From Thraustochytrium sp. TN22 (lineage: Eukaryota > Sar > Bigyra > Thraustochytrida > Thraustochytriidae), in the NCBI GenBank assembly GCA_013306675.1, contig JABLUY010000174.1:1-64000 (forward strand): a DNA stretch of 64,000 bases, given 5' to 3'. Of this stretch, positions 5,561 to 56,795 are shown in pieces. The position numbers and the translations under genes were made by a program. A model generated the notes under the pieces. That model searched no databases, was not told where the DNA came from, and worked only from the letters and a program-made list of their open reading frames with translations. Numbering within the stretch: position 1 is the first letter of the stretch; each line of letters starts with the position of its first letter.

Positions 5561-6345
5561 CTCCGCTGCTCGCCGCACCGGCAGCGCCCCGCGGCGGCCG
5601 CCAAGCGCGTTTGTGTCCAGCCTCGCTCACTCACTTCTGTCAGGCTGTCACTCTCTCTCAGCCTGTGTGTGTCCATCTTGGCCGCCTTGGGCACGAGAAG
5701 TCACGTTCCGAGGCTCCGAGGCCAAGCATTATTCACTTCCGCCTGGCCGAAGACGCGTGGCGGCGTTGGAGTTAGTGTCAGGGCCCGTCGAAGCCACGCC
5801 AGAAGTCAGAGGTCAACAACACCCTTGCAGTCGGGCGCTCGACGTTGCACAGCAAGAGCGTACTGACTGTACATGACGCGCATGCCCTGCGTGGCTTCTG
5901 CAGTGTGGTGCATGGGCGCCTTGCAAGCAGCTCTGCATAGTCTTGACCACGAGTCTTCGCCCATCACCAACCCTCCCTGCTCGCCGAGTCCTGGTAGGCC
6001 TGTGACGCGGCGATGCGCTGCAAACAAAGGATCAGAGCTTGCTCGGAAGCACGACTAGCATGCACCAGCATGGCACATGGCATGGCACAAGTTCTCAGTT
6101 CTGCGCGACTGGTCTTCGCCTTCCAATGAACCTCACCTCCCGACCGCTCCTTGCTAGCCCTAGAGCAGGCAGGCCAAGCCACGCGCCGCGCGGACATACG
6201 CTGCAAAGCACTGCACGCGAGCGCCGTGCCATGCAGCACAGCACGCCGTGGGGGCACGGTGACCGTGGTTCGCAACTTGAACTTTGAAGGTGGAACCCGG
6301 ACTCGGACGTTGCGTTGCAGATGCCATGACGAGGAGCGAGGAAAG
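5561..6345. other. Divergent spacer between GT61 and the 6346 gene
   Basis: A 785-bp spacer between two gene starts that should contain both promoters. It has a CT/TG-rich tract at about 5650-5675 and an ACTCGGAC octamer at 6301, only 45 bases before the plus-strand ATG. No convincing gene. Confidence 0.5.
6301..6308 (+). promoter_or_regulatory. ACTCGGAC intergenic motif, 45 bp before ATG
   Basis: Exact octamer directly upstream of the 6346 start. It is one of about fifteen copies in this window that fall outside confident coding sequence. A regulatory role is inferred from position and recurrence only. Confidence 0.4.
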
Positions 6346-7542
6346 ATGCCGCAGACCCGAACACGACCCACCCGCGCCCGGGACCGACGCGCGGGCGGCG
6401 CGCGGCGCGCGGGCGGGATGTTCGCGCGCGAGCTGAGCGACCGCAACAACCTGCGCGCGGGCGGCGCGGGCGGCGCCGGCGACAAGGCGGCGGCCATGCG
6501 GCGGCAGCGGCAGCGGGCTGCGGCGGCGGCGCCGGCGGCGACGCGGCGCGCGGCGAGCGGCAGGGCGAGGGCGCGCGCGGCGGCGAGCGGGCCGGCGACG
6601 AGGCCCGCGGGCACGAGGAGCACGGCGACGGCGACGCAGAGGCCAGCGGCGCCGGCGTGGACGGCCGTTTTTGGAGCCAAGGGCGGCGAGCAGAGGCCCG
6701 TGGGCGCGGCCGAGTGCGAGCTGCTCAAGGCGTGCTACGACAGCGCCGTGGTGTGTGGCGCCGCGGGCGTGCAGAGCGCGGACTTTGACGCCGCGACAGG
6801 CGCGGTGCTGGAGCGGTCGGCGGCCGGCGTGGGCGAGGACGCGGACGCGACGGCGCAGCTGGTGCGGTACTGCCTGGAGGCGTGCGCTGCGGCGGCGCCG
6901 ACGGCGACGGGCGCAGAGGTGCAAGCGCAGCTGCAGAAGCTGGCGCTCATGCAGGCGCGCAGCGCGCGGCGCTCCGAGATCGCTCGCGTCAAGACGGTGA
7001 TCGACGCGCTCTGGCACGGCCACGCGGAGGACGCTGCGGTGGACATGGAGGTGGAGCTCTTCCGCTTCCTCAAGTGCAAGCACGGCCAGGACCGCGCGCG
7101 CATGGCCGCCGAGGCGGGCCACCTGGTCTCGGCCATGGCGCGGCTCGCGGATTACGACGCGGACATTGCGGTCTTCTTTCGCATCCTGCGCAATGAGGTG
7201 GACCAGGGCTTTTGGCGTGTGCGCTGCAAGCTGCGTCAGACGGTGCGCGAGTTGGCGGCGCGCCAGGGCATGGGCCCGCGCGAGATCGTCGCGCACATGT
7301 ACAATGACGCGGACGCCGCGGACGTGCTGCGTCGGCTGGAGGCGGCGGACGAGCCCGCGCTCGAGGACGTGCTTCTACGTTTCCATTTGGAGCGCCACCG
7401 CGCGCTTATCGCGCCGTGCCGCGAGGCGTACGCGGCGCTTGACGCCGCGTCGCGCGCCGACGTGAGCTTCTCCTCCTTTGTGCGCGCCTGGCTCTTGCCA
7501 CCGGGCGACCCGGAGCGCGACGAGCGCGACGAGAGCGGATAG
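6346..7542 (+). CDS. Unrecognised alpha-helical protein with disordered basic N-terminus
   Basis: 398 residues from the ATG at 6346 (MPQTRTRPTRARDRR); the frame opens further upstream but through unconvincing sequence. Residues 1-105 are arginine/alanine/glycine low complexity with no clear membrane segment. From about residue 105 (GAKGGEQRPVGAAECELLKA) to the end it is a normal, non-repetitive helical protein with well-mixed charges, for example VDMEVELFRFLKCKHGQ, YDADIAVFFRILRNEVDQGF and FHLERHRALIAPCREAY. I recognise no family or catalytic motif. A real gene is supported by balanced amino-acid use only in this frame, an ATG 45 bases after an ACTCGGAC motif and a clean TAG stop. Confidence 0.65.
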   Translation: MPQTRTRPTRARDRRAGGARRAGGMFARELSDRNNLRAGGAGGAGDKAAAMRRQRQRAAAAAPAATRRAASGRARARAAASGPATRPAGTRSTATATQRPAAPAWTAVFGAKGGEQRPVGAAECELLKACYDSAVVCGAAGVQSADFDAATGAVLERSAAGVGEDADATAQLVRYCLEACAAAAPTATGAEVQAQLQKLALMQARSARRSEIARVKTVIDALWHGHAEDAAVDMEVELFRFLKCKHGQDRARMAAEAGHLVSAMARLADYDADIAVFFRILRNEVDQGFWRVRCKLRQTVRELAARQGMGPREIVAHMYNDADAADVLRRLEAADEPALEDVLLRFHLERHRALIAPCREAYAALDAASRADVSFSSFVRAWLLPPGDPERDERDESG

Positions 7543-8579
7543 CTCGCACGAGCGAGATCCATCGCGCGCGAGAGCGCGCAATTTCGCGCTCCTTGCGCCG
7601 TGCTGTTCCACGAGGCATCCGCGGCGCTGGACGCGACCTGAGCTTGCGCCGGATCGTGGCGGGGTTTATAATAGAGTTGATTGAAACCGGGTGCGCACGG
7701 CAGCCAGATCATCGCGCCCAAAATGCGGCTCTCGTGTAAATCTAGCATTGACATGGACGCGAAGGACGCACTGTGCCAGCTGGAGGCTGCGGAGGAGCCG
7801 GCGTGCTCAGGAGCCGGCGTGCTCATGCAATGCGCTTCCATCGCGGCGCGCGACGAGTCGTACAGGCGTTTTCTACGGGGTCTGAGCAAAACGGCAGGCG
7901 AACCTACGTGGCTGGCCATTGTCTTGTAATCATCATCAGCAGCATCATCAGCATCATCATTAAAGTGTGTCAAAGGCTACCTCGAAGACCGTGCGAGCAG
8001 TGTAGAAGTGTGTAGTGTGTATGTGTGTAGTTTGCAGGTGACGAGAGAGAGAGAGAGAGAGAGAGGGAGGAAGGCAGAGCCAGAGAGAGCTTGACGTTGG
8101 CTGGGCCGAAGAGAGCTTGACGTTGGCTGGGCCGAAGCTCGCGTACACGGGAGCAATGCCTCGATGGCAGGTCTCACCATGAGCCACCAGCATCATCAAG
8201 GCACTCGCTTCCGCGTACAGCAGACAGGCAAGTAGTAGACAGCCGTGAAGGTGCGTGAATGCGCTGCCGAGTCTGGCCTGTCCTGACTTGTCCTGTCCTG
8301 GCCTGGCCTGGCCTGTCGTTCCTTGGTTGCAGGCTGGCCTCCTCATCGTCAAGTGCTTGTGCAGCGAGGCATCACTGGACTATCTAACTGGCGAGAGCAG
8401 CGAAGCGAGCGGCCGTGAGTCCTCCGTCGTGACTTGCGCGGTAGCGAGGCCTGCACAGAAAGGAGCGCCGCGAGCTGGCCGGCGGCGCGCGACCTGCACC
8501 CCTGCTGCGCTGCGCCGATTCGCGGGCGCGACCTGACCGCAGGCCAGCCAGCCCTCCCTTCCCGCCGTCGCCCACGTAC
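7543..8579. other. Spacer with several simple repeats
   Basis: No convincing gene. It holds a CAT-rich tract at 7930-7962, a (GA)n tract at 8043-8066, a direct duplication of about 26 bases reading GAGAGCTTGACGTTGGCTGG at about 8085-8136, and a CCTGG/CTGTC tract at 8277-8320. Confidence 0.6.
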
Positions 8580-9706: not shown

Positions 9707-9738
<32 letters not shown>

Positions 9739-12200: not shown

Positions 12201-13839
12201 CCTGATTTTTTTTGTCGCGCAAGAGCAAACCCGGTCACGCCTCCCGCGCAGCGCGGTTGCAGGCGGGCACTGGCAGGTAGGCAGACAGGCTCTTGAGGTA
12301 GGCCAGGCAGCAAGTGATTGCCCTCGTGCCCAATGAGCTTGCGCTGGAGCCGCCGCCACCGCCGGCCCCGCTGCCGCCGCTGCGAGGTCTCAGCGCGCAC
12401 ACGTGCCGTGCCAGCTCGGCCGGCTCGCACACGGCTCGCCTTCAAGTGACTTTTAACTATATGTACCACGCTCGCATTGCCTCGCATTGCCTCGCGATGC
12501 GCGCCGATGCGCACACCGCGTTCTCGAGCATTTTCTCTCGACACCTCCAAGTCGAACGAAAGACTTGCCCGTTGGACGGGTTCGCCGTCGCCGCCGCTAT
12601 AACGCGACCGGATCCGGAGCCGACTCGGAGTGGCCGGGACCAGCGGGGAGTGACCGTTGGCGCCGAGGCGCATCGCTCTGACACCCGCACACTCGTCCTG
12701 GCTCCCCCTGGTGACAGTGGTGAGTCGATTGATTCTTCGAGTATCGATGCGATCGGAATCGGAGCTCGAGTGCGCGACCCCTGCGCTGCGAGGGGTTGCA
12801 CGCAAAGGGAGCCTAAGGGCTCGCTAAGGGCTCGCATTGCGTGCGCCGCGCGGTGCTTCGGAGAAAGCAGCTTCACATGGCATGCCAACCTCGTCCGCCA
12901 CCGAAGGATCGGGGTGGAACTTGGAGGCCCCACCACCTCGATGCGAATTGCTGTCCAATGGCAGCAATGCTTGTCTTGCTTGTCTTGCCTTCACTTCTTA
13001 CAAAAATTGAAACGCCAAAACTGCGCCCTGGACCCTGGTGGCGGAAGGGCGCACCGGCACTGACACTGCACTGCATTGGCACTCCGAGTCTCAAGCAAGA
13101 CACGAGGCCAGCTCAAGTCGGTCGGTGCGGGCCCAGCGGAGCCGTTTGCTCCAAGCCTGACGGTGCAAAGTCACCTTCTGCGGGCAAGAGAAGGCCCGAC
13201 GCGAACCGGGCCGCCACGGGCCGGGCCGCCCCCGTCGGGCCGCGCGGCGGGAGCCTATTATTCCAACGCGTACGTGGCTGGAACTCGGAGTCGAAGGTCA
13301 TCTTCATCTCGGCCGCCGCCAACGACACTCATACTCGGAGCGCCCCGCGGAACGTGACCTGTTTTATTGCTGCTCCGAGTCAGCTTGAGTGTGATGAATG
13401 AAGCCTCTCGAGCAAAATCTGCCTGGTGAAGTCCGAGAACGCGGAGGCAGGGCAGCTAGGGTGGCCGACCTGTCTCCCGACCAACAGGGGTTACAGGGGA
13501 AAGGACTACGGCCGTCCTTTTGTTAGCAGAGGACTTTACTTGAGGGTGGAGTTTCTGTCGAGACGCACCAATCCGTGAGCGGGTGCTTTGAAGTCCGATT
13601 GCACTCGCTGCGAGCTGGAAGCCCCAGCGGGACGAGACGATCGAGACTGGCGCAGGCCGCAGATCAGGTTCAGGGCCGCCTGACTGGCCGCGCCAGTGGT
13701 CAGGGTGGCGTAGGCGACGGTCGTCAAGCGGGTGGGCCAAGGACCAGCCGAGCCAAGCCGAGCCGAGCCGAGCTGTGGCGAGGCGAGGCGAGACGAGCTG
13801 GTCGCGTCAAAGGACGCCGACCCGTCGCCAGATGCCATC
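12201..13839. other. Long divergent spacer with clustered ACTCGGAG motifs
   Basis: A 1.6-kb region between TTC29 and the 13840 membrane protein. ACTCGGAG or its complement occurs at 12623, 13082, 13283, 13333 and 13373. A GCATTGCCTC direct repeat lies at 12474-12493 and a CCGAG/CGAGG tract at 13741-13797. No gene seen. Confidence 0.55.
13082..13380. promoter_or_regulatory. Cluster of four ACTCGGAG-type motifs
   Basis: CTCCGAGT at about 13082 and 13373 and ACTCGGAG at 13283 and 13333, within 300 bp and about 460-760 bp upstream of the ATG at 13840. Two copies lie in each orientation. Regulatory role inferred. Confidence 0.35.
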
Positions 13840-16111: not shown

Positions 16112-16684
16112 GCGCCGCTTCTCAGCTCATCTCAGCTACGGACTCGGACAAAGCGAGAGAGAACCAACCGCAACCAACCTTGTGGGGTAGGGTTCCTAGG
16201 TACCAAACAAGATGCAAGATGAAGATGCAAGATGTAACCGAGCGAATCAAGCGCAGGCGCGCGCTCACATGTCAGACTTGGCGCGACTTCAACTTGGCCA
16301 CGAAGACTTTGCCCCGAAAGCCCCGCGATCCTGCGGACAGAGGCGAACGTCCGCAGCCACAGGACAGCCACAGGACGTCACAGCCACGACTCCAATCAAT
16401 CGATCGATCGATCGATCGACGGAAACCAATCACCCAACCCAAGCCGAGGCCAGGGCGCCAGGCCGGAGACTCGTCGCCATGGCGACGCGCGGCGCCGGCT
16501 GAGGCAGGCAGGCAGGCGACGGCCTGGCGGGGCGCGCCGCCCTGCGGCCCGAGAGCGCCAAGAGGGCCGCCGCCGCGATGGCGCGGGAGAACGCCCGGCG
16601 CTCGCCCGCGCGCGCGGCGGCAGAGCGCGAGCACGAGGACGCGAGCGCCACGCACGCGGTGCCGTCTCCGCAGCGCGCAGCGGC
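16048..16684. other. Spacer with ACTCGGAC motif and GATC tract
   Basis: After the 3' duplication, an ACTCGGAC octamer lies at 16142-16149 and a (GATC)n tract at 16397-16420. An open frame from 16578 (MARENARRSPARAAAERE) looks protein-like for about 35 residues and then loses character just where the KIX frame begins, so an unseen 5' exon of the KIX gene is possible. Confidence 0.45.
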
Positions 16685-17415: not shown

Positions 17416-18690
17416 TCACTCGCGGTCCTCGAGGCAGGGGTTCTTGGCGAGCGTGGCAAGTGAAGAGCAGGTGTCCAGAACGATCTCCGGGACAGCGGCG
17501 AGCATGATCTCGGCGCCATGCAACGCGCCCTGGAGCTGCTTGCAGGTGGCGGGCGCGCCGGCTGCGGCGAGGCGGCGGAAGAAGTTGACGCCCTCGTCGC
17601 GCAGCGGGTCGAACTCGCCGACCTGGATGACGGTGCGCGGAAACTGCGCGAGGTCCTCGTCCGTGGCGAAGACGGGCCAGGCGAGCGCATTCTTGGCCTC
17701 GTACGCCTCGAGGCCGTAGCCGATGGCGGCGTTGAGGCCGGCGGTCATGCGCAAGAAGAGACCGTTGTTCTCCGAGTCGAGGTGGCTGACGCCGAGAATG
17801 CCGTCGTTGGAGACGTCCTGCGGCCAGCGGCCCGCAATGTAGGGGCACATGGCATAGAGACCGTGGCGCACGAGGTCGCGGCGGCCCTCGCGGATGGCCT
17901 TGAGGGCGACCGTGAGCGTGAGGTTGCCACCGCCGCTCTCGCCGGCCACCACGATGCGGTCATCGATGCCGAGGTCCTCCTTGTGGTCGTGCACCCACTC
18001 CAGCGCACTGTAGCAGTCGTTGAGGCCCGCCGGGAAAGGCGCGGTGCGCGGGTTCGTCGCCGTGGGCACCTCGCAGTTGGTAAAGTCCGGAAGCACGACC
18101 ACAACGCCGTGCTTGGCGAGGATCTTGGCGATGTTCTGGTAGTTCGGGTCGAAGGCCGAGTTGCTCGCCATGCCGCCGCCATGAAGATACACCACACAGG
18201 GACGGGGCTCGTCGGCGTCGTGGTCCGGGCGGATGATGGACAGCGCGATGGAGTTGCCCTCCGGCTGCGATTCGATCGTCTCCCTGGTGCACACCAGGCC
18301 GTCCTCGTTGGCCAGCCGCGCCGCGCTCTCCGGCAGGGGCGGACCCACGCCCTCCTTGGTGAGCACGGCGCCCAGATACCCGAGGCCCTGCATGCGCTTG
18401 GCCAGCAGTTCCTCGCGCGTCTTGGTCTCCCCGCGGTCGTCCAGCATGCACACGCCGGCCACGACGAAGGGCCGCATGAAGTCGCCCTTGAAGCGCGGGT
18501 CCACGCGCGGGTCGTCCAGCAGCCGCCGCCACTGCCACTCGATCAGCCCACGCGTCTCGGCGTCCACCACGTCATCCTGCTCCTGCTCCTTGGCCGCCAT
18601 TTCCGCGCTCGCCGCCGCCTCTTCCTTGCCCGCGCTCGCGCTCGTCGCCGCGGCCTTCTTGGCTGCCGTCGACTTGCGGAAGAACCCCAT
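17416..18690 (-). CDS. Alpha/beta-hydrolase, hormone-sensitive-lipase family (abhydrolase_3), copy 1
   Basis: 424 residues from the ATG at 18690. A lysine/alanine-rich N-terminal 45 residues and a helical cap (residues 45-130) precede the hydrolase fold. The HSL-family oxyanion motif HGGG is at residues 170-173 (VVYLHGGGMASNSAFDP), the nucleophile Ser252 in GESGGGN, the catalytic Asp361 in EFDPLRDEG and the catalytic His391 in GALHGAEIM, so the triad is intact. Members hydrolyse esters or acyl-lipids; the substrate here is unknown. It is followed in the same direction by a close paralogue at 19534-20724, so the pair arose by tandem duplication. No signal peptide; probably cytosolic or lipid-droplet associated. 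Confidence 0.88.
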   Translation of the reverse strand: MGFFRKSTAAKKAAATSASAGKEEAAASAEMAAKEQEQDDVVDAETRGLIEWQWRRLLDDPRVDPRFKGDFMRPFVVAGVCMLDDRGETKTREELLAKRMQGLGYLGAVLTKEGVGPPLPESAARLANEDGLVCTRETIESQPEGNSIALSIIRPDHDADEPRPCVVYLHGGGMASNSAFDPNYQNIAKILAKHGVVVVLPDFTNCEVPTATNPRTAPFPAGLNDCYSALEWVHDHKEDLGIDDRIVVAGESGGGNLTLTVALKAIREGRRDLVRHGLYAMCPYIAGRWPQDVSNDGILGVSHLDSENNGLFLRMTAGLNAAIGYGLEAYEAKNALAWPVFATDEDLAQFPRTVIQVGEFDPLRDEGVNFFRRLAAAGAPATCKQLQGALHGAEIMLAAVPEIVLDTCSSLATLAKNPCLEDRE

Positions 18691-19533
18691 TCGCGTGGAG
18701 CTACTACTCAGTCAGAGCGTTGTTGCTTCGCCGTTTCGGGTCTGCAGGCCGCCGCCCGCCGTGCCTGTGGCACTGCCACTGCCAGACACTGTCCGGCCGG
18801 CCCGGTGCCAGTGGACGAGTTGGAGCCGCCGGCGTCGCTCGGCCGCCGATGCACGATCGACCCGAGTGCGGCCCGCCTGCGAGCCCCCCACCCTTTCGCC
18901 CACGCTCGCGTGTCGACAAGCCGAGCCAATCTTGGCCAGCGCCGCGTGCACGACGGTCTGGCCGTCACGGTCGCGTCGCGGCCCGTCGCGGCGGCGCCGC
19001 CTGCAGTGGCTGACCTCACCGCGGCGCCCTGCCGCGGCTCAGGCTGGCTGCTCGCATCACTGGCAGGCTGCGTCGCGGCGCCCAGCTCCAACAGCGCGTG
19101 GTCCGGCTGCGGCACGTGCCGCTCGATCTTCTGTGTGGTGGCCGTAACTCGGACTGGTGGGCGGGCGGCGCGAGCGAGCGAGCACGGCGATTCACTGCAC
19201 GGCAGTAAGCTTTGCACTGCAGCCTGCGTTCGATCTACGGTGCAGCGGCTGCTCAGGCTTGGCTCGCGTTTCCGGCCGGAACGCAACCTTTGGCAGCAGC
19301 CTTGCGCAATCGCTCCAGTGTTGGACAAGATGCACTCGCCCAGGCACTAAGCTTGTTAGGACAGTTGAAGGTAGCTAGCGTAGGCTAGCTAGCAGCGGCA
19401 CGACACAACACGCAGCACGGCGACCATGGCGAGCCTGAGCAATGGCGAGCCTGAGTGGTACTACTACAGCATTGGCTTCGACGCTCATGGGCTGAGCAGT
19501 GAGCTATAAGGTAAGAACTACTTTAGATCACGG
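18691..19533. other. Spacer between the two hydrolase genes
   Basis: Holds ACTCGGAC at 19147-19154 (about 460 bp before the copy 1 ATG) and a GTAGCTAGC/GCTAGCTAGC stretch at 19372-19393. No gene seen. Confidence 0.55.
19147..19154 (+). promoter_or_regulatory. ACTCGGAC intergenic motif
   Basis: Exact octamer upstream of the minus-strand hydrolase 1 gene. Confidence 0.35.
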
Positions 19534-20724
19534 TCAAAGGCTGGAGGCAGGCGCCGCAAGGGGCCGCGAGCGGGCCATGGCTGCGATGGAGGCGCAGGCG
19601 TCGAGCGTGAGCTCGGGCGTGAGGTTGACCATAAGCTCGGCGCCGTGGATGCTGCCGTGGACCTGCTTGCAGGTGACGCGAGCACCGGCGGCGGCGAGGC
19701 GCCGGTAAAACTTGAGACCCTCGTCGCGAAGCGGGTCGAACTCGTTGACCTGAATATGCGTGCGAGGGAAGCGGCGCAGGTCCGCGTCGGACGCGAAGGA
19801 CGGCCACGCGAGGGGGTTCTTGTCCAGAAAGGCCTGCGCGCCGTAGCCGAGCGCCGCCGTGCTGACGCCGGTGCCGCGAGGCATGGAGAGGAAGATGTGG
19901 TTGTTTTCCGAGTCCAGGTGGCTCGTGCCGAGCGTGGCGCTGTCACGCTCGTCCTGCGGCCAGCGGCCAGCAATGTAGGGGCACATGGCAAAGATGCCGT
20001 GGCGCACAAGGTCCTCGCGACCCTCGCGGAGGGCCTTGAGCGTGACAGCTAGCGTCAGATTGCCGCCACCGCTCTCACCGGAGACCAGGATGCGGTCGTC
20101 GACGCCGAGGCGCGCCTTGTTCTCGTGGATCCACTGCAGCGCGCTGTAGCAGTCGTTGAGGCCAGCCGGGAAGGGCGCCGGCTCCGGCTGCGACGCGTGC
20201 GGGATCTCGCAGTTGCGAAAGTCCGGCAACACCACCACGACACCCTGCTTGGCCAGGATGCGCCCCATCACCTGGTACTCCGGGCTGAACGCGCTGTTGG
20301 TGGCCATGCCGCCGCCGTGGATGTACATGACGCAGGGCAGCGGGCCGGGCGGCGCGCTGGCGCCGACCGGCCGGATCACCGACAGCGTGAGGTCGATGCC
20401 GTCCTCCGCGGTGCGGATGACCTCCTTGGTCCTCTCCAGGCCGTCCATGCTCCAGAGCGCGCGCACCTCGGGCAGCGGCCGCGCCGGCTTGGGCATTCGC
20501 CTCACGGCCTGGACGAGGCCTTGCATCGCCTCGGCCCGCCGCTCCAGCAGCTCCTCGCGCGTCTTGACGTCTGGCAGGTCCGCCATCATGAAGGCCATGC
20601 CGGCCAGGATCGGCCGCATGAACTCTGCCTTGTACCTCGGGTCGATGCCCTGCTTTTGCTGCAGCTTTTGCCACAGCTCCTCCACGCGCTGATCCATGCC
20701 GGTCATCTCGTCCTCCTCGCCCAT
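19534..20724 (-). CDS. Alpha/beta-hydrolase, hormone-sensitive-lipase family, copy 2
   Basis: 396 residues from the ATG at 20724 (MGEEDEMTGMDQRVEEL); the frame is open further upstream only through repetitive sequence. It parallels copy 1 throughout: a cap region with DPRYKAEFMRPILAGMAFM, HGGG in VMYIHGGGMATNSAFSP, nucleophile in SGESGGGNLTL, shared MCPYIAGRWPQDE and TSHLDSENNHIF segments, catalytic Asp in NEFDPLRDEGL and His in SIHGAEL. It lacks copy 1's long lysine-rich N-terminus. It diverges from copy 1 enough to be an old duplicate. Probably an esterase or lipase with a different substrate range; substrate not inferable. Confidence 0.88.
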   Translation of the reverse strand: MGEEDEMTGMDQRVEELWQKLQQKQGIDPRYKAEFMRPILAGMAFMMADLPDVKTREELLERRAEAMQGLVQAVRRMPKPARPLPEVRALWSMDGLERTKEVIRTAEDGIDLTLSVIRPVGASAPPGPLPCVMYIHGGGMATNSAFSPEYQVMGRILAKQGVVVVLPDFRNCEIPHASQPEPAPFPAGLNDCYSALQWIHENKARLGVDDRILVSGESGGGNLTLAVTLKALREGREDLVRHGIFAMCPYIAGRWPQDERDSATLGTSHLDSENNHIFLSMPRGTGVSTAALGYGAQAFLDKNPLAWPSFASDADLRRFPRTHIQVNEFDPLRDEGLKFYRRLAAAGARVTCKQVHGSIHGAELMVNLTPELTLDACASIAAMARSRPLAAPASSL

Positions 20725-21081
20725 GGCGGCGCGCAAGCGAGGTGAGTCTAGCGAGCAAGCGAGCAAGCGAGCGAAGCGAAGCGGGGCGAGGCGCGCGCGA
20801 GGCTCGCACTCGCTCAGCTCAGGCTCTCGCTCGCTTCGTGGTTTGGTCTGTCTGTCCCTGCGCAGGCTGGCCGAGCTGAGATTGGCTGCTGCACAGGAGT
20901 GGTACAAGAGGTCGGACCTGGCTTGCGTCCACGGTCGCGCTGCCAAGGTCGCACTCCGGACCGTCGTCGAGGTCCGGCGTCGAACGGCTGCTCACTGACA
21001 GTAAGCACAGAGAACGCAACGGCGAGGTTCCCCTTCCCTGCCACCGTGCCACGAGCTGGACTCGAGGAATGTGGAGGGACG

Positions 21082-21089
21082 ACTCGGAC
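21082..21089 (+). promoter_or_regulatory. ACTCGGAC intergenic motif
   Basis: Exact octamer about 360 bp upstream of the hydrolase 2 start and about 1 kb upstream of the oxidoreductase. Confidence 0.35.
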
Positions 21090-22015
21090 ATCGCGAGAAG
21101 CTACTAGTCGAGCATCGGCATACTGGGACGTTCGGGTTGGGCGCGCATTCAGGGCGGAAGCATCTTCTTTGCTTGGGCTCGTTGGGCGTCAGATCAACCA
21201 TCGCCTTCGCTCGCTTGCGTCGTCTCAGGTTAGGCATGCCGAGCGGGTGTTGACGCCGTTGGGCGAGAAGCTGACCACGATGACAGTGCACTGGCGAAGG
21301 GAGGAACCACCTGCACGCAGCGTGTCTGCTCTCTTTTGAGTGGCTCATTGCGAGTATTGACCTCGGGCAGGTTCGGGGCCCGACGTAGGCCAGCATCGAC
21401 TCCGAGTCATGCTTGTACCGCATGTCCTGTAGAGCGCTTCACCGATGGCCTCAGCTCGTGCTTCGTGCCGACAGCCTCAGCCCGTGCTTCATACCATTTG
21501 ATCTCCTGCGAAGACTTCAAGGTCGACTGCGTTCGGGTTCTGCTTGCTCGCTTCGCTCACGCTCCGCTGACACGCACCGCGACCGCGTCAAACACCGGGC
21601 GCTGCTCTGCTAGGCTCTGCTTGCATGAGCTGGCACGGCTTCGCGCGCGGACCTCTCAAGGTCGATCTGGAGCGCGTTTGAGCCGGAGCATCAACTACAA
21701 TGGTCCAATCAATGTCTCTTCGGCGCGCGTGACCACCCCTGCGAGCATGACTCGGATGGGATTGGCACAACGCGCGGCGCGGCATGAGCAACGCAACGCA
21801 ATGCGAAGCAACCCCCGAGAGCGGGCGCGGCATGCGCAACGCGAGCGCCCTTTGGCGCGCTCCAGGTCGCTCGCTAGCTAGCTACAGGCGGGGGCGGTCC
21901 GACCAACCCGGCGGCGGACTCGCTGATCTGCTGCTCGTCTAGATCGATCGGCCGAGCGAACGAGCATTCGAGCTTCAAGCGCAGGCGGCCGAGACCCAAC
22001 GCGCCAGCCCTCGCT

Positions 22016-26370: not shown

Positions 26371-26378
26371 GACTCGGA
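26371..26378 (+). promoter_or_regulatory. ACTCGGAG intergenic motif
   Basis: Variant octamer about 450 bp upstream of the FGYD-repeat gene start. Confidence 0.3.
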
Positions 26379-27049
26379 GAGGGTGGTGCTGCAGCGTGCC
26401 CGAGATGGAGAAGAGGTCGCACAGCCATTCGGCAGACGCATCGCAGCGTATAATGTTGCCGAGGACGAGTGCGCTCCGTCGTGTGTAGGGCCTAGAACGA
26501 GTGCCAGTGCGGCGACCACTGAAACTGTGGGGTTGTCTGATCATGCAAGAAAGATTCAGCGCGCGCCAATGCCAGTGTCTGGCGAGACCCATGATTGACA
26601 AGTGCGGCAAGCACGCGCCGACTCAGACAGTCAGTCACTCGGTCCCGTCGTCGCTGTTGGTATCTAGCTTAACTCGGAATCTGGCAGAGAACATCGCGTC
26701 AGGCATTCATTCGCAGGCTGCGAACGCTCAGCGCTTTGCTGCAAGCTTCAAACACGGCCCCATGCGTGCATCTGAGATGCGCACAGCGCCTACTTTACAC
26801 AAACCACTCTTTTCCATGTACAAAGTCATCACGCCCCGTTCGGCCGCCTCCCCGGCGCCCTTTTTCTTGCTGCGCACGTGATCCTCCTCCTCTTCATCTC
26901 GCTCGTCTCCCTCTCTTCGTCCCGTTCCTCATGGTAGCAACGAGGAGGACAACGAACGATTGGCGACCTAAGATTGCGTAGTTCGCTCCTCGGCAGGTGC
27001 CGCTCCCCTAAGGCCTCTCCGCTCGGCAGGAGAGCGCACAACATCGGAA

Positions 27050-36381: not shown

Positions 36382-37878
36382 TTACAACGAACGCTGTTGG
36401 GATACAGGTGGCTTGGCCGCGAAGAAGAAGAGAAAGAGCAGCGCGACACCGAGGACTGCGGTAGCCGCAATGCGAAAGACCGCGACCTCGCCAAAGTCTT
36501 GCATGGCCTTGGCGCCGACGAGGAGACCCAGACTGATGCCAAGACTGCGAACGGCACCACGCGTGCCCTGCGCAAAGGTCTCAAGACCGCGTGGCGCAAT
36601 GTCGCTCATGATGAGCACGACCGAGAGTTGCCTGAGCGCGACGGTGACGCCGTGCAGGGGCTCGCAAAGCAGAATGAGCCAGCCTTGACCGGGCGGGATG
36701 AGCGTGTAGGCGAAGACGCGCACGGAGAAGGTGAGCAGAGCGATGACCAAAAGCATGGGCGCAGACACGAGGTTGAGCAGGCGACGCGAGAAGGAGAGAA
36801 TCGGAATCTCGAAGAGCACCGTGACGCCGATGGACGTGGCGAGCAGCATGTTGGACGAGCCGAGCTGGTCGCGAAAGTACAGAAACGATAGGCTCTGCAC
36901 GAGGCCGATGCCGGCCTGAGAGATACCAATGGTGGCAAAAAAGACCAGGTACGGGCCTGTGCAGCAGGCGATGGACAAAAACGCGGCCAGCTTGGACCAT
37001 GTGGACCGGACGAGGACCGGCTGCTCCGGATCAGCATCGGTCCTCACGTCCGCAGATTCGTTGCGAGCGACCCCTTGGTCGTCTAGAGGCCGCGACTGCG
37101 CGCGAGGCGCGTCGGAGCCGACCTCGGGGAGCTCAATGCCCTGCATGAGGCCATCCTCTTCGTCCACATCGCCCTCTTCGTCGGTGGGGACGCTCGCGTA
37201 GGGGGACGGCTGAGTGCCGGCCTGGCGCACGAGCGCGGCCAGGCCAAAGCCGCACACGAAAAGGGCGCTGACGCACACGTTGAAGGCCACCATGGACAGG
37301 TAGGTCCCTGTGCGGTCGAAGAGCCAGCCGAGGGTGAAGTTGCCGAGCGCCCTCGAGACGGCGCCGAAGGCGCGCTCGCGCCCGTAGAGCTTCTTGCGCT
37401 CGGCGCGGTCGTCCGCGTCCACGGCGGACGATGTCGACGCTGGCCGCGCAGGCAGCACGTGCTGCAGGCAGTAGCTGTCCATGTTGGCGCCGAGGCCGCC
37501 CAGGCAGATGACGTGCACGAGGCGGATGGCCAGCACGGCCCAGAGGCTGTGGAAGCGCGCAAAGGCAAGCAGCCCGAAGATCAGGCCGCCGGAGCCCACG
37601 CACATGCACATGGCGAGCGTGGTGCCCAGAACGCGGTCCGCGAGCAGGCCCCAGACCAGGGGCGCGAAGAAGTTGCCTGTGCGCGCCACGGCCATGACCA
37701 TGCCGATCTCGTCCTCAGCGAGCCCCAGGCTAGCCATGAGCAGCACTAGGAAGCGGCCCTGTGCGGCCATCACCAGATACCCGAGCATGAAGACCCAGCG
37801 CGGCCGCAGCGCGCCGTCCGCCGCCAGCAGCACGCCGTCGGCGACGGTCGTCGCGGGGCGCTTGCCCTCCTCCGCCAT
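36382..37878 (-). CDS. Major facilitator superfamily transporter (MFS_1_like/MFSD6 type), array member 1
   Basis: 498 residues from the ATG at 37878 (MAEEGKRPATTV). Twelve predicted membrane segments in two bundles around a cytosolic loop (residues about 240-330) rich in acidic residues. Landmarks shared with its two neighbours are LRPRWVFMLGYLVMAAQGRF in the first helix, LVWGLLADRVLG in the helix 2-3 loop, DSYCLQHVLP, YGRERAFGAVSRALGNFTLG and MSDIAPRGLETFAQGT. The YGR.R.WG..S pattern is typical of the MFS_1_like group related to bacterial nucleoside:proton symporters and MFSD6. It is the most diverged of the three. Substrate unknown. Confidence 0.88.
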   Translation of the reverse strand: MAEEGKRPATTVADGVLLAADGALRPRWVFMLGYLVMAAQGRFLVLLMASLGLAEDEIGMVMAVARTGNFFAPLVWGLLADRVLGTTLAMCMCVGSGGLIFGLLAFARFHSLWAVLAIRLVHVICLGGLGANMDSYCLQHVLPARPASTSSAVDADDRAERKKLYGRERAFGAVSRALGNFTLGWLFDRTGTYLSMVAFNVCVSALFVCGFGLAALVRQAGTQPSPYASVPTDEEGDVDEEDGLMQGIELPEVGSDAPRAQSRPLDDQGVARNESADVRTDADPEQPVLVRSTWSKLAAFLSIACCTGPYLVFFATIGISQAGIGLVQSLSFLYFRDQLGSSNMLLATSIGVTVLFEIPILSFSRRLLNLVSAPMLLVIALLTFSVRVFAYTLIPPGQGWLILLCEPLHGVTVALRQLSVVLIMSDIAPRGLETFAQGTRGAVRSLGISLGLLVGAKAMQDFGEVAVFRIAATAVLGVALLFLFFFAAKPPVSQQRSL

Positions 37879-38210
37879 GGCGCCTGACTTGCGGCGGCCG
37901 CCGTTGCTGCTCGCCGCTCGCCGCTCGCCGCTCGCCGCGGGTGGGCCGGCCGGCCGGCCGGCCGCGCGGGAGCGGGCCGACCGCGCCGCCGCGCGACGTG
38001 GCTGCAGTTGAACTCGAAGCCAAGGCCAGAAGGCGGCGAAGGCGAAGCGACTCGAGTCCGAGCAACCACGAGCGCCGTGCAACCCACACGTGGTCCATCA
38101 AGACCGCGCGGGCGGCGCTGCCGCGACGGCCGCGGGAGCGTCGCGAGCTTGAACTTGAAGAATAAATGCCCCGGCGCGTCGGCCCGGGGCGCTGACGCCA
38201 GGCCCAAACA
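37879..38210. other. Spacer between MFS genes 1 and 2
   Basis: Contains GCCGGCCGGCCGG palindromic sequence at about 37947-37963 next to the MFS 1 start. No gene and no ACTCGGAC. Confidence 0.6.
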
Positions 38211-39677
38211 TCAGGAGCGCGAGCAGCAGCGGATCGAGCCGAAGAAGACAAAGGCCATGACGAGGACGATGGCCGCGGCGCCGCGGTACATGACGGCGGC
38301 ACCGTGCGTCTCCATGACCGCGGAGCCAACGACGAGACCGAGGCTAGTGCCGAAGCTGCGAACGGCAGGGATGGTGCCCTGCGCGAAGCTCTCGAGCCCG
38401 CGCGGCGCCATGTCGCTCACGATGAGCACCGAGGAAAGCTGGATGAGCGCAAAGGTGACGCCGTGCAGAGGCTCGCAGAGCAGAATGAGCGCTCCGTGCT
38501 CGGGCGGGACGAAGGTGTAGGCCACGACGCGAACCGAGTAGGCGAGCAGGCCGAGAAACATGAGTGTGGGCGGCGACATGGCCGCGATGAGAGGACCGCT
38601 GAGCGCGAAGAGCGGGATCTCAAAGGACACCGTGACGCCCACGGAGATGCCCATGACGAGGTTGGAGGCGCCGATGTCGTCCTTAAAGAAGAGGAAGGAC
38701 AGATTCTCGACCAGGCTGACGCCTGCGCTCGCCACCGCGAGCGTGAAGAAGAAGATGATCGCGGGGAACCGGCAGCAGGCCAGAGCCACAAAGGCGGAAA
38801 TCTTGTCGGCCACGGACTCGGGCGGCGCGGCCAGCATAGCCTCGGGCACGAGCTCGGGCGGCGCCGGTGGACCCGGAGACGGCCTGATGGCGCCGACGGC
38901 GTCCTCCTCGGCAGCCTCGGAGCTGGCGGCCGCTCGGGATGCCATCTCGACCTCGGCGAGGACCGGCACGTAACCTGTTTGCGCGCGACCGTTGCGTGCC
39001 AGCGCCGCGTTGGCCGCCATGCAAAGAAGCAGCACGAGCGTGGCGATGATGTAAAAGGGCACCATAAGCAGGTAGGTGCCAAAGATGTCAAAGAGGATGC
39101 CAAGCACGAGGTTGCCCACCGCCCAGGAGACGGCGCCCCAGAGGCGCTCACGGCCGTAGAGGCGCTTGCGCTCGAGCGCCTCCTCCGCCTCGGCAGCCGC
39201 CGCGTCCTCCTCGGTCCATTTGGGCCCGTGCGGCGTGGCGCGCGAGCCAGAGGGCAGCACGTGCGCCAGGCAGTAGCTGTCCATGAGCGAGGCGAAGCCG
39301 GAGAGGAGAACGCCGTGCAAGGTCCGCAGGACGAGCACCGCTTGGAAGCTGTGGAAGCGCGAGAACCAGAGGAGTCCAAAGGCCAGGGCTGAGCTGCCCA
39401 CCGAGATCGCCATGGCGGCCTCGCGGCCAAGCACGCGGTCTGCCAGCAGGCCCCAGAGCAGCGGCGACACGGTGTTGACCAGGCGCGGCAACGACGAGAC
39501 GACGCCGATCTGCGCGTCGCTGAGCCCGAGCTCCTCGAGCATCAGGCTGATGAACCTGCCCTGGCCCACCAGCACCATGAACCCAAGAAAGTACACCACA
39601 CGCGGTCGCAGCGCGCCGTCGCTGCCTGTGACGCGCGCATGCAGCGCCGCCGCCAAGGTGATGCCGGGCGCCTCCAT
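38211..39677 (-). CDS. MFS transporter (MFS_1_like type), array member 2
   Basis: 488 residues from the ATG at 39677 (MEAPGITLAAALHARV); the frame opens at a GTG at 39689. Twelve membrane segments: RPRVVYFLGFMVLVGQGRFI, SPLLWGLLADRVLGREAAMA, DSYCLAHVLPSGS, YGRERLWGAVSWAVGNLVLG, central loop with alanine/proline/glutamate (residues about 225-285), and SSVLIVSDMAPRGLESFAQG near the end. Its 3' half is almost base-identical to member 3. Same direction and spacing as its neighbours, so a head-to-tail tandem array. Substrate unknown. Confidence 0.88.
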   Translation of the reverse strand: MEAPGITLAAALHARVTGSDGALRPRVVYFLGFMVLVGQGRFISLMLEELGLSDAQIGVVSSLPRLVNTVSPLLWGLLADRVLGREAAMAISVGSSALAFGLLWFSRFHSFQAVLVLRTLHGVLLSGFASLMDSYCLAHVLPSGSRATPHGPKWTEEDAAAAEAEEALERKRLYGRERLWGAVSWAVGNLVLGILFDIFGTYLLMVPFYIIATLVLLLCMAANAALARNGRAQTGYVPVLAEVEMASRAAASSEAAEEDAVGAIRPSPGPPAPPELVPEAMLAAPPESVADKISAFVALACCRFPAIIFFFTLAVASAGVSLVENLSFLFFKDDIGASNLVMGISVGVTVSFEIPLFALSGPLIAAMSPPTLMFLGLLAYSVRVVAYTFVPPEHGALILLCEPLHGVTFALIQLSSVLIVSDMAPRGLESFAQGTIPAVRSFGTSLGLVVGSAVMETHGAAVMYRGAAAIVLVMAFVFFGSIRCCSRS

Positions 39678-40065
39678 GGTGCCCGTCACGCTCGTGAGCT
39701 GCCTGGCGCTCGGCGGTCACGGTGCGGGCTCCGAGCCGCGTCGGGTGCCCGGGCTGCAGCGCGCTGCAGCTTTGGCGGCGCCGTGCCGGGCCGGCGGCGC
39801 TCTGCGCTCTCGTTCTCTGGCGAGTTGTGTCGCGTTGCGGTTGTGGTGTGTGGTGCATGCCAGTGGGTCGTCGACTGCGCTGCAGAACCCGAAAGAACAG
39901 TCGAGGCGCGTTCGCTGCTTCGGTTCGCTTGCATTCAACACATCGCAGCATCCGGGGTCGGGTCTTGGCGGCGGCCTCGACAGCGAAGGAGTGGCAAGGT
40001 CGCGGCAAAGGCAAAGGTTGGTTTCCATTAGCAAGTGGGCGCCGCCCCGTCCTGCTTGTTCTGGC
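39678..40065. other. Spacer between MFS genes 2 and 3
   Basis: No gene seen. It is slightly less GC-rich than the flanking genes and should contain the MFS 2 promoter and MFS 3 3' end. Confidence 0.6.
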
Positions 40066-41574
40066 TCAGAGGCGCGAGCAGCGCAGCGACCCGTAAAAAA
40101 TCAGAGACATGACAAAGACGATGGCGGCCGCGCCGCGGTACATGACGGCGGCGCCGTAATGCTCCATGACAGCGGAACCCACGACGAGGCCAACGCTCGT
40201 GCCGAAGCTGCGAACAGCAGGGATGGTGCCCTGCGCGAAACTCTCGAGCCCGCGCGGCGCCATGTCGCTCACGATGAGCACCGAGGAGAGCTGGATGAGC
40301 GCGAAGGTGACGCCGTGCAAAGGCTCGCAGAGCAGAATGAGCACGCCGTGCTCGGGCGGGACGAAGGTGTAGGCCACGACGCGAACCGAGTAGGCGAGCA
40401 GGCCAAGAAACATGAGTGTGGGCGGCGACATGGCCGCGATGAGAGGACCGCTGAGCGCGAAGAGCGGGATCTCAAAGGACACCGTGACGCCCACGGAGAT
40501 GCCCATGACGAGGTTGGAAGCGCCGATGTCATCCTTGAAAAAGAGAAAGGAGAGGTCCTCCACCAAGCTCACGCCCGCGCTTGAGACCCAAAGCGTGACA
40601 AAAAAGATAAAAGCCGGGAACCGGCAGCAGGCGAGGTCCACGAAAGCGCGGATCTTGTCCAGGACAGCCTCGGGCGGCGCCTCCTGCTCGGCCTCGGCTG
40701 CCTCGGGCAGGAGTTCGGACGGCGCCGGCGGCGCGGGAGGCGGCGCGATCTCAAGCTCCGTGACGGGCGCCGTGAAGTCCGGATCGCTGGCCGGAGGTAC
40801 CGGCGCGACCGCTGCGCCGCCGCTGCTACCGCCAGGGGTCATCTCGACCTCCACAACGGGCGCGTAGCCGGCCTGGACGCTGTCGCCCCGGGCCAGCGCC
40901 GCGTTGACCGCCATGCAGACGAGCAGCGCAAGGGTGGCGATGACGTAAAAGGGCACCATGAGCAGGTAGGTGTCAAAGATGTCAAAGAGAATGCCGAGCA
41001 CAAGGTTGCCGATGGCCCACGAAATGGCGCCCCACAGGCGCTCGCGGCCGTACAAGCGCTTGCGCTCGTTCGCGTCCTCGCGCTCGAGGCGCTCGTAAAC
41101 CGCCGTCTCCTCCTCGCCCCACTTGCTCCTGGCCGCTGCGCTCACGCTGCGTGAGGGCAGCACGTGCGCCAGGCAGTAGCTGTCCATGAGCGAGATGAAG
41201 CCGGACATGAGCACGCCGTGCGTGGCACGCACGATGAGCGCCGCCTGGAACCCGTGGAAGCGCGGAAACCACAGCAGCGCAAAGACCACGGCCGAGCTCC
41301 CCGCCGACAGCGCGATCGCCGCCTCCACGCCCACCACGCGGTCTGCCAGCAGGCCCCAGAGCAGCGGCGACACGCTCATGAGCAGCCGCGGCAGCGACGC
41401 GATCACGCCGATCTCCTCGTCGCTCAGGCCCATGTCCTCCATCATCAAGCTGATGAACCTGCCCTGCCCCACCAGCACCATGAAGCCCAAAAAGTACATC
41501 ACGCGCGGCCGCAGCACGCCGTCCTCGCCCACGAGCCGCGCGCGCAGAGCCGTCAGCACGCCCATGGCGCCCAT
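40066..41574 (-). CDS. MFS transporter (MFS_1_like type), array member 3
   Basis: 502 residues from the ATG at 41574 (MGAMGVLTALRAR; a second ATG three codons on is equally possible). Same landmarks as member 2: RPRVMYFLGFMVLVGQGRFI, SPLLWGLLADRVVG, DSYCLAHVLPS, YGRERLWGAISWAIGNLVLG, SSVLIVSDMAPRGLESFAQG. The central loop is longer than in member 2 and has a different sequence, rich in proline and glutamate. Two ACTCGGAC motifs lie 26 and 192 bp upstream. Likely the same substrate class as member 2. Confidence 0.88.
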   Translation of the reverse strand: MGAMGVLTALRARLVGEDGVLRPRVMYFLGFMVLVGQGRFISLMMEDMGLSDEEIGVIASLPRLLMSVSPLLWGLLADRVVGVEAAIALSAGSSAVVFALLWFPRFHGFQAALIVRATHGVLMSGFISLMDSYCLAHVLPSRSVSAAARSKWGEEETAVYERLEREDANERKRLYGRERLWGAISWAIGNLVLGILFDIFDTYLLMVPFYVIATLALLVCMAVNAALARGDSVQAGYAPVVEVEMTPGGSSGGAAVAPVPPASDPDFTAPVTELEIAPPPAPPAPSELLPEAAEAEQEAPPEAVLDKIRAFVDLACCRFPAFIFFVTLWVSSAGVSLVEDLSFLFFKDDIGASNLVMGISVGVTVSFEIPLFALSGPLIAAMSPPTLMFLGLLAYSVRVVAYTFVPPEHGVLILLCEPLHGVTFALIQLSSVLIVSDMAPRGLESFAQGTIPAVRSFGTSVGLVVGSAVMEHYGAAVMYRGAAAIVFVMSLIFYGSLRCSRL

Positions 41575-41599
41575 GGCGCCCTTCGGGCCCGCGACACGG

Positions 41600-41773
41600 A
41601 CTCGGACGCGGACTCAGACTCGGTCTCGCTTCGACTGCGGCTCGCGGTCAGGTCGAGGCGGCCGCCCACCCGCCCGAGCCGCCGCGCGCGCGACCGCGAC
41701 GCGCGGGCGGCCCTCCGCCGCGAGCCGCCACGAACGACCTCGTGCCGTTCTGCATCCCATCCAGGGTCCGAGT
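41600..41773. promoter_or_regulatory. Two ACTCGGAC motifs upstream of MFS gene 3
   Basis: ACTCGGAC at 41600-41607 and its complement GTCCGAGT at 41766-41773, 26 and 192 bases before the minus-strand ATG at 41574. Confidence 0.4.
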
Positions 41774-42326
41774 CGCGCAGGCCGCCTGCCACCACGGGGG
41801 CTCCAAGGCGAGCAAGCCAGCCAATCGACCTCGAGAAGTCTGGAGAACGACTTGGGCGCCCGCGGGGGCGGCAACTTGAAGGGAGCTTACTGCTGAAAAC
41901 GTTTGGGCCAGGCGACGGGAATAGACCCAGACGCGAGTTCGATGAGTTGCGCGCGCTGCGCCGTGGTGCCGTGGTGCCGCAGGCTGTAGAGCTTGCCGAG
42001 AGCTACTACAAGTCTCTCAGTATTCACCGGTCAAGTTGGGTAATGCCAAGGTGCTCATGTTTGTATACGTGCGAAACGTACACTTCTGGCAGACGGCGAG
42101 CGCACCTCCTGAGGCTCCTGCTCAGTATGTCCATGCCGCTTTCGTCCTTTCACTGTCGAGGTGGCACGCGCTTTTGGCGCGCGTCCGCGCCTCTCAATGC
42201 CCTTCAAGTTCGCCGCGACGCGAGGCCACGCGACACGCGCGCGCGTGCAGACTGGGCACGTGGTCACAATGAGCCCCGGGCCGGTGGCCACTGCATAGTT
42301 GCGGCGCGGCCGCTGCAGCGACTCGA

Positions 42327-42363
42327 ACTCGGACTCGTACTCGACTCGGACTCGGACTCGGAC
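42327..42363 (+). promoter_or_regulatory. Four ACTCGGAC motifs, three overlapping
   Basis: Octamers start at 42327, 42344, 42350 and 42356; the last three form a 6-bp-period run. They lie about 325-360 bases before the lipase ATG at 42685. Confidence 0.4.
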
Positions 42364-52674: not shown

Positions 52675-52834
52675 GGTGCGTGTACGAGCGTGCGCCGTAT
52701 GCGCGCGCGCGCCCGTGTGCAAGTGCGCGCGCGGAACGCGAGCGCGCGCGCTGCTCTGCTGCCGCACCGCAGCGCGTGCAGCCTGTGGCGGTCACTGCGC
52801 TTTTTGCGAGCCGTTGGGAGCCTGACTGGGAGTG

Positions 52835-52842
52835 ACTCGGAC
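52835..52842 (+). promoter_or_regulatory. ACTCGGAC intergenic motif
   Basis: Exact octamer 161 bp upstream of the CFAP337 ATG. Confidence 0.4.
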
Positions 52843-55399: not shown

Positions 55400-55407
55400 A
55401 CTCGGAC
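55400..55407 (+). promoter_or_regulatory. ACTCGGAC intergenic motif
   Basis: Exact octamer 129 bp upstream of the dynamin ATG. Confidence 0.4.
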
Positions 55408-55430
55408 AGGGTCTGCGCAGACGTGGATCG

Positions 55431-55726
55431 TGGGCCGGGCCGCTTAGTTTCAGCGAGCGAGCTGGCCATCACCGCCACTGCATCACCGTAACTCATACGA
55501 GCGCGCGTCTGGCCCGGGCGTCTCGCCAGACCCGGCGCTGGCAACCAAGGCTCTCCTCAAGGCAGTCTACCGCGGCATAGTGGGCCGGGCCGCTTAATTT
55601 CAGCGAGCGAGCTGGCACTGCATCACCGTAACTCATATGATATACGAGCGCGCGTCTGGCCCGGGCGTCTCGCCAGATCCGGCGCTGGCAACCAAGGCTC
55701 TTCTCAAGGCAGTCTACCGCGGCACA
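55431..55726. repeat. 150-bp tandem direct duplication
   Basis: TGGGCCGGGCCGCTTAGTTT at 55431 recurs at 55581 with one change (TTAATTT), and both copies run to AAGGCAGTCTACCGCGGCA. The copies differ by a small deletion (CATCACCGCCACTG present once) and a short TATGATA insertion. Confidence 0.9.
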
Positions 55727-56795
55727 TTGGTATCTTGCAAGTTACTTCCAGTTGGATCTTTGGCGTGGCGAGAACGCGAGCTGAGCAAGGACAAAATGAT
55801 CGCGCGCGACGATCTCAGCCCCGCCGGCGCGAGAAGCCAGATGTTCCTGTGAAGGATACGGCCTCGATCGCACTGACAGCAAGAGTAGAAGGGGCGTACA
55901 AGGCGCTAGCTAGCTAGCTAGAGAAAGGCGAAATCTCGAAGGCGCCACGGCTCGGGTTCTCAGAGCTCCAAGTCCTCCGAGACTGAGACGAGCGAACCGA
56001 AGCGAAGCCCGTCGGTCTCAGCCAGTGCGTCTGCTCTGCGGGCCGCCCGGCCAGTCACCGGAGTCACTGCAGTCTTGCCAGACTCGGGCTTCGCTGGCGA
56101 CTCGGAGCCAGCCTGAGCGAGCGGCTTGCACTGCCGCCATAGGCTGGCTGACACGTGAGAGCGAAGCGCAACGCTGCGAGAACACCTGTGAGGAAGCGGC
56201 TGCAGCCTCTCGCCTCCACGCGGCTGCAGCCTCCCGCCTCCGACCGTCCGCGCTCTCCTGCGCCGCTTTGCGCGCCGTCCTCCTGTTCGCCTACTCTGCC
56301 CTGCTCGCGCCCACGTCCGCGTCAAGCTGCCTCGCGCTCCAGTTCTCTCCGCCACGCCCGTCCCTCCCTTCCCTGACACAGTCAATGATTCAATCCACCA
56401 AGCACTGGCACTGCAGGCTGCATCCGATTTCTCCCTCCCTCCGTGCTCCTGCTGCGCGTGCCGCTCCGGGTTAGCCGAGTCGTCCTCGGCGTCCGTCTCG
56501 CCGTTGCCGCGGTCCTGCGCGGCCAGTCGCGGCGGCGCGGCGCTGCTCGACTTGCGCGCCGGCGCGGCCACTTGCGCGCGCGCATTCCGCAGTGGGCGCG
56601 GGCGCGGCCCCACTTGCGGCGGCGGCGCGGCACTGGCGGCGCTGGCTGGCCGCCTTGGCTTCTCTGCCTAACCAGCCTAACTGTAAGTAGTAAGTTATTT
56701 GTCTCTGTCTCTGTCTCAGTCTCCGCCTCTGCCTCTGTCTCCGTCGCGGCGGCTGCGATGGCGCGGATCGCGCGGCAAACGGGGCGCGCGATGCG

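Follow-up and report, generated by a model that had tools for sequence, protein, structure and literature searches.

A sharp intergenic word, TCCGAGTY, concentrated upstream of genes in Thraustochytrium sp. TN22, is a probable promoter-located binding site

What is the short word that recurs between the genes in the first 64,000 bases of contig JABLUY010000174.1 of Thraustochytrium sp. TN22? An earlier note on this stretch (here, the window; bases 1 to 64000 of contig C82 in our numbering) took the octamer ACTCGGAC, with its variant ACTCGGAG, for a lineage-specific promoter or transcription-factor element that avoids coding DNA. We find that the element is TCCGAGTY (equivalently, RACTCGGA), 8 bp long and non-palindromic. 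It is specified base by base, is concentrated in intergenic DNA and 5' flanks, and has no common flanks. TCCGAGTY is probably a promoter-located site at which an abundant protein of this thraustochytrid binds DNA sequence-specifically; this protein is putative, and we infer both its binding and the effect of that binding from sequence.

The genome comprises 37.9 Mb in 453 contigs. Because the window was the discovery set, we took an independent sample of 239 kb from other stretches (L009 to L033). The DNA read consisted of this sample, the window, and five short stretches of contig C1, with a non-coding total of 109 kb. Genes were predicted ab initio by codon usage, as open reading frame (ORF) models without introns, and their starts were refined afterwards; most of those in the window and sample appear to be long open frames, strongly biased to G/C at third positions. 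Expected counts in the window came from dinucleotide shuffles (100 for ACTCGGAC), and the coding expectation came from synonymous-codon shuffles. Genome searches were also run with backward-read controls, but the CG of the word is missing from these and their composition is unmatched, so we place weight on the shuffles and on Markov expectations.

The window holds 16 copies of ACTCGGAC against a shuffle mean of 1.97, and none of the 100 shuffles reached 16; ACTCGGAG occurs 10 times where 2.27 copies are expected. Genome-wide, ACTCGGAC is found 5583 times (backward control, 2493), about 7.4 times the 753 copies expected when a 4-mer Markov model of the sample is scaled up to the genome. The shorter ACTCGGA occurs 11312 times (backward control, 4440), and 9645 of these copies read RACTCGGA (backward control, 2489). 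The informative extra base is this purine before ACTCGGA, and the final C of ACTCGGAC drops out of the word. Extrapolation gives about 6000 non-coding copies across the genome.

Specificity was assessed in the 109 kb of non-coding DNA, where TCCGAGTC appears 51 times against 2.6 expected (19.9-fold); 43 copies (16.8-fold) remain once local repeats are collapsed. Single changes at positions 1 to 7 leave 0- to 3.2-fold enrichment, and changes at position 8 give 8.3-fold for T, 3.7-fold for A, and 0.8-fold for G. Outside the 8-bp core, each position carries at most about 0.3 bit (59 non-coding sites). Because T at position 8 keeps part of the enrichment, other changes abolish most of it, and the flanks are nearly uninformative, we define the element as TCCGAGTY.

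ACTCGGA is present 36 times in the non-coding DNA of the sample against 4.4 expected, and by z only two CTAG-repeat words rank higher. We ran a second scan in which local repeats were collapsed, words of period 1 to 4 were dropped, and sharpness was scored as the loss upon any single change. ACTCGGA was the sharpest heptamer in the sample among the non-simple words tested (38 copies against 5.1) and came second in the sample plus window, behind TAAGTTA (12 copies); its z was the highest among the heptamers listed in both sets. For octamers, TCCGAGTC was third in sharpness in the sample, behind TAGGCCTA and GTCTGGGT, and second in the sample plus window, behind TAGGCCTA.

Two other views of the word were tried and rejected. 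A palindromic or dimeric site is suggested by ACTCGGAGT, an inverted repeat present in some copies only. We reject it because the base before TCCGAGT shows little preference save for a scarcity of T (C 28, G 23, A 6, and T 2 among the 59 sites). We also take TCCGAGTCC to resemble the T-loop of transfer RNA (tRNA), as a B-box-like sequence would. This was ruled out: the window yields no tRNA and no Rfam match at gathering scores, and TTCGAGTC is merely 2.3-fold enriched.

After merging the window and sample and collapsing tandem copies less than 14 bp apart, we count 1 copy in 11.0 kb of convergent gaps, 23 in 48.8 kb of tandem gaps, and 28 in 27.0 kb of divergent gaps (0.9, 4.7, and 10.4 per 10 kb, respectively). 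Binomial tests give p values of 0.007 for the convergent scarcity and 0.0005 for the divergent excess. Among 594 heptamers with 25 to 90 copies, window included, ACTCGGA alone combines a divergent/tandem ratio of at least 2.1 with a convergent/tandem ratio of at most 0.19. Of 13 further words, TGCAGTG is the only one with a divergent excess at p < 0.05, uncorrected for multiple testing.

The share of genes with an upstream copy was determined for genes that scored 40 or more for coding and had 400 bp or more of DNA upstream, using 200 shuffles. TCCGAGTY is present in the 1 kb before 24 of the 68 sample genes (shuffle mean, 2.5; maximum, 7) and before 10 of the 20 window genes (mean, 0.96; maximum, 5), hence 34 of 88. 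Genome-wide, with a start-codon-like context as the anchor, the interval 382 to 442 bp 5' of the ATG contains 503 copies (270 sense and 233 antisense, where sense is the strand reading TCCGAGT). The same type of anchor gives 326 copies (170 sense and 156 antisense) 371 to 431 bp 3' of the start-like ATG.

The earlier claim that the word avoids coding DNA does not survive. The 112 predicted coding sequences contain 21 copies, close to the mean of 18.3 (range, 11 to 26) in 100 synonymous shuffles. The apparent contrast arises from the excess outside genes, helped by coding copies that had been overlooked. Nineteen of the 21 lie in two frames reading Ser and then Asp or Glu, 13 of them in the frame AC-TCG-GA. 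In the window, 23 of the 30 ACTCGGA heptamers are intergenic and 7 fall within predicted coding ORFs; two of these 7 (9900 and 9946) belong to a weak ORF and sit within a tandem duplication of 46 bp. Under a looser gene definition with unrefined starts, coding sequences take in 9 of the 30 heptamers and 5 of the 16 octamers.

With coding avoidance and the final C set aside, the proposal of a promoter or transcription-factor element is the best supported: the word is over-represented with base-by-base specificity, is concentrated on the 5' side of genes and scarce at their 3' ends, and lacks flank similarity among the sites compared. Several observations weigh against it. The sample alone points in the same direction without reaching significance (1 copy in 7.6 kb of convergent, 19 in 38.9 kb of tandem, and 11 in 15.3 kb of divergent gaps; p = 0.09 for convergent and 0.12 for divergent). 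When only the divergent/tandem ratio is considered, the word is 19th among the 594 heptamers, and its convergent scarcity is shared at p < 0.05 by 1 of the 13 other words, CAGCCTG (multiple testing uncorrected). The contrast of 503 to 326 copies around start-like ATGs (p = 8e-10, tandem copies counted singly) may partly restate the difference between non-coding and coding DNA, since the DNA 3' of a genuine start is coding. An INR- or DPE-like core promoter element would keep a fixed distance from the transcription start site and a strong orientation; the distances of TCCGAGTY from the ATG form no narrow peak, and many copies are 300 to 900 bp upstream. Two overlapping genome-wide proxies for orientation, both with a high coding background, are nearly even, at 270:233 (p = 0.11) and 228:212 (p = 0.47). 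Some copies sit within hexamer arrays or duplicated stretches, and the ab initio gene calls have approximate start codons.

Orientation bears on the alternative that the word acts at the RNA level, as a sense-strand element of the 5' leader that affects stability, translation, or processing. By nearest 5' end, sense copies outnumber antisense copies 34 to 17 in the window and sample (p = 0.024) and 21 to 9 in the sample alone (p = 0.04). Sense copies are also in excess 300 to 600 bp upstream, with 16 sense and 3 antisense copies in 25.2 kb (12:2 in the sample and 4:1 in the window; copies in divergent gaps may count twice). In the 100 bp next to the ATG, the surest leader, 1 copy is sense and 4 are antisense (8.8 kb over 88 genes). 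The leader-like stretch, poor in T and in ATG, spans about 60 to 150 bp, and start choice itself favors such contexts. Because of the distance from the ATG and the few sense copies in the presumed leader, a purely RNA-level element is disfavored, and we consider it unlikely. Another chromosomal function, such as a replication origin, an insulator, or a site for an architectural protein, would place the word in 5' intergenic DNA only incidentally. The roughly 6000 extrapolated copies, the loose spacing from the ATG, and the dense divergent gaps agree with such a role, but convergent gaps are likewise non-coding and are nearly empty of the word, which makes this a rather improbable account.

Repeats could also generate a frequent word. 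The tandem 14-mer ACTCGGACTCGGAC has 852 matches genome-wide, and an uninterrupted array of more than 50 ACTCGG hexamers occupies positions 51254 to 51573 of contig C10. In the window, 5 of the 16 ACTCGGAC copies are in two imperfect GACTCG arrays, and the frame preferred by coding copies fits Asp-Ser coding (GAC TCG). All of this would suit a by-product of GACTCG/TCCGAG hexanucleotide repeats and Asp-Ser codons, with no site at all. Such arrays should raise all rotations of the hexamer equally; once repeats are collapsed, however, 58 non-coding ACTCGGA copies persist against 7.2 expected (8.0-fold), and the rotation AGTCCGA reaches 3.1-fold. The enrichment is thus not carried by arrays, the rotations are not alike, and the coding count is near its synonymous-shuffle expectation; we regard a repeat by-product as quite improbable. 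That the word is a piece of some dispersed repeat or mobile element is scarcely credible. A few copies do lie in duplicated stretches (two places on contig C37 that are alike in the letters compared, a related one on C69, and an inverted pair in L019), but an all-against-all BLASTN of the 150-bp flanks of 67 non-coding sites (E value, 1e-4; low-complexity filter) found no match between separate places, and outside the 8-bp core the information drops to about 0.3 bit or less per position.

If TCCGAGTY is indeed a promoter-located site for a DNA-binding protein, this protein would read a fixed, non-palindromic 8-bp sequence, mostly 100 to 900 bp upstream of the start codon. Instead of a single small regulon, it would serve a broad set of genes, about one-third of those sampled that had sufficient DNA upstream. 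Binding would probably activate transcription or open the chromatin of promoters, by analogy with the general regulatory factors of yeast. Sites of the Reb1, Abf1, and Rap1 type are sharp, very frequent intergenic words upstream of many unrelated genes, and TCCGAGTY resembles them in its wide use at unrelated genes. It differs from them in its variable spacing from the start codon, which reaches about 900 bp. To our knowledge, TCCGAGTY matches no yeast general regulatory factor consensus. A lineage-specific general regulatory factor that organizes about one-third of thraustochytrid promoters, jointly with a few sharp intergenic words (GTCTGGGT, CTCAGGCT, and AACTTGAA), is a tentative and rather doubtful extension.

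A word this sharp and frequent could lead directly to a main promoter-binding protein of thraustochytrids. These organisms serve omega-3 oil production, and TCCGAGTY could help in the design and adjustment of expression cassettes. It could also show how far promoter codes have diverged within the stramenopiles.

Other stramenopile words invite comparison, within the parts of the published accounts available to us. The oomycete core elements INR (YCAYTYY), FPR (MWTTTNC), and DPEP (SAASMMS) were found by over-representation; they reach background beyond 100 to 125 nucleotides from the start codon and have forward-to-reverse ratios of 1.8 to 5.9 (PMC3599244). Like them, TCCGAGTY is a short 5'-side word in a stramenopile group; unlike them, it lies mostly more than 100 bp upstream of the start codon, with an orientation bias that is seen locally but is not significant genome-wide. 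In a by-eye comparison of consensus sequences, it fits neither INR, FPR, nor DPEP on either strand (PMC3599244). The Phytophthora "motif-1," TACATGTA, is described as a highly abundant upstream word whose binder is not known (PMC3520976); it shares upstream abundance with TCCGAGTY but differs in sequence and in being an inverted repeat. The main text of that paper contains no CCGAG or CTCGG string. For thraustochytrids, assay for transposase-accessible chromatin sequencing (ATAC-seq) in Schizochytrium limacinum matched promoter motifs to library families including BPC, MYB, and OBP (PMC10840233); the analysis is likewise of thraustochytrid promoters, but a word like TCCGAGTY was not seen in the portion of the motif set at hand. 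Among the open-licence PubMed Central records retrieved, this ATAC-seq study was the only source of thraustochytrid promoter motifs, and queries on promoter motifs of thraustochytrids or Labyrinthulomycetes otherwise led only to fatty-acid pathway genes. The same records contain no report of TCCGAGTY, whole-word matches being limited to pituitary inflammation and NAT1/NAT2 polymorphisms. The promoter vocabulary of thraustochytrids seems largely unwritten.

Within the window, all 15 places previously listed for ACTCGGAC are correct, and one more at 58652 (minus strand) brings the total to 16. The 7 places listed for ACTCGGAG also stand, with 26371 moved to 26372, and 15642, 17770, and 21400 raise that total to 10. 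The statement that no copy lies in confident coding DNA fails, as 58652, 15642, and 17770 fall inside predicted genes. The distances to start codons were about as claimed for the third MFS gene (25 bp), the dynamin-like gene (131 bp), and the WD40 gene (160 bp); for the gene placed at 6346, a later start is predicted at 6418, 110 bp away. The intergenic copies are as follows.

6300 to 6307, minus strand: TCCGAGTY, 110 bp upstream of the predicted start 6418 (plus), on the opposite strand
12622 to 12629, minus strand: TCCGAGTY, 422 bp upstream of the TPR gene start 12200 (minus)
13083 to 13090, plus strand: TCCGAGTY, in the divergent gap 12200 (minus)/14092 (plus)
13282 to 13289, minus strand: TCCGAGTY, in the divergent gap 12200 (minus)/14092 (plus)
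13333 to 13339, minus strand: TCCGAGT heptamer followed by A, hence not TCCGAGTY, in the divergent gap 12200 (minus)/14092 (plus)
13374 to 13381, plus strand: TCCGAGTY, 711 bp upstream of 14092 (plus)
16141 to 16148, minus strand: TCCGAGTY, 536 bp upstream of the predicted start 16685 (plus), on the opposite strand
19146 to 19153, minus strand: TCCGAGTY, 456 bp upstream of the first esterase gene start 18690 (minus), sense
21081 to 21088, minus strand: TCCGAGTY, 357 bp upstream of the second esterase gene start 20724 (minus), sense, with flanks that differ from those of the 19146 copy
21401 to 21408, plus strand: TCCGAGTY, 708 bp upstream of the dehydrogenase gene start 22116 (plus), absent from the earlier list
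21749 to 21756, minus strand: TCCGAGTY, 359 bp upstream of 22116 (plus), on the opposite strand
26371 to 26378, minus strand: TCCGAGTY, 447 bp upstream of 25924 (minus)
26671 to 26678, minus strand: TCCGAGTY, 747 bp upstream of 25924 (minus)
30613 to 30620, plus strand: TCCGAGTY, 2.2 kb upstream of the CRAL-TRIO gene start 32848 (plus)
41599 to 41606, minus strand: TCCGAGTY, 25 bp upstream of the third MFS gene start 41574 (minus), in an imperfect GACTCG array (41593 to 41628)
41767 to 41774, plus strand: TCCGAGTY, 192 bp upstream of 41574 (minus), on the opposite strand
42326 to 42362, minus strand: cluster of four TCCGAGTY copies within an imperfect array of GACTCG hexamers, in the divergent gap between the MFS gene and a lipase-like gene
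52834 to 52841, minus strand: TCCGAGTY, 160 bp upstream of the WD40 gene start 52674 (minus)
55400 to 55406, minus strand: TCCGAGT heptamer followed by G, hence not TCCGAGTY, 131 bp upstream of the dynamin-like gene start 55268 (minus)
56099 to 56106, minus strand: TCCGAGTY, 831 bp upstream of 55268 (minus)

These copies are not all independent, because of the arrays at 42327 to 42363 and 41593 to 41628 and the 9900/9946 duplication. The divergent gap between the third MFS gene and the lipase-like gene has six copies, four within one hexamer array and one within the other. Each of the neighboring esterase genes, members of a single Pfam family, is preceded by a sense copy (at 456 and 357 bp), and the flanks of the two copies differ; this suggests retention of the word, in a single case. 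One esterase of the window, the single protein compared in this way, has its best match in Hondaea fermentalgiana, also a thraustochytrid, at 64% identity over 78% of the query. The two adjacent esterase genes (Abhydrolase_3) occupy 17416 to 20724 on the minus strand, and three adjacent MFS_1_like transporter genes occupy 36382 to 41574 on the same strand. The final 60 bp before predicted ATGs are poor in T (9 to 11%) and in ATG, and start contexts prefer a purine at -3 together with G or C at -1, a trend that is partly circular, as start choice was trained on such contexts.

TGCAGTG occurs within 80 bp of TCCGAGTY 20 times against 7.6 expected locally, in the same orientation in 14 of 20 cases (tandem copies uncollapsed). 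An oriented pairing was tried as a candidate grammar and rejected: across the genome, neighbors within 30 bp to one side are split almost evenly between the orientations (133 and 118; p = 0.38), so we claim none. The non-coding DNA of the sample and window contains further sharp words, namely, GTCTGGGT, AACTTGAA, CTCAGGCT, GTCACGGT, TCACTGTC, and TGCAGTG, which are possibly additional promoter words. The palindrome TAGGCCTA is enriched 41- to 54-fold in the same DNA, with 16 strand counts, from 9 places, against 0.3 to 0.4 expected; some of its copies belong to duplicated DNA, for example the similar matches on contig C37. The tandem tetramer CTAGCTAG is the top non-coding octamer by z in the sample (118 strand counts against 2.6) and has no 5'-side preference. 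Finally, the intergenic stretch 30662 to 31203 of the window consists of a 76-bp tandem repeat in seven copies, with a 153-bp higher-order period, that contains CCATAACAATTGA and CACGTG.

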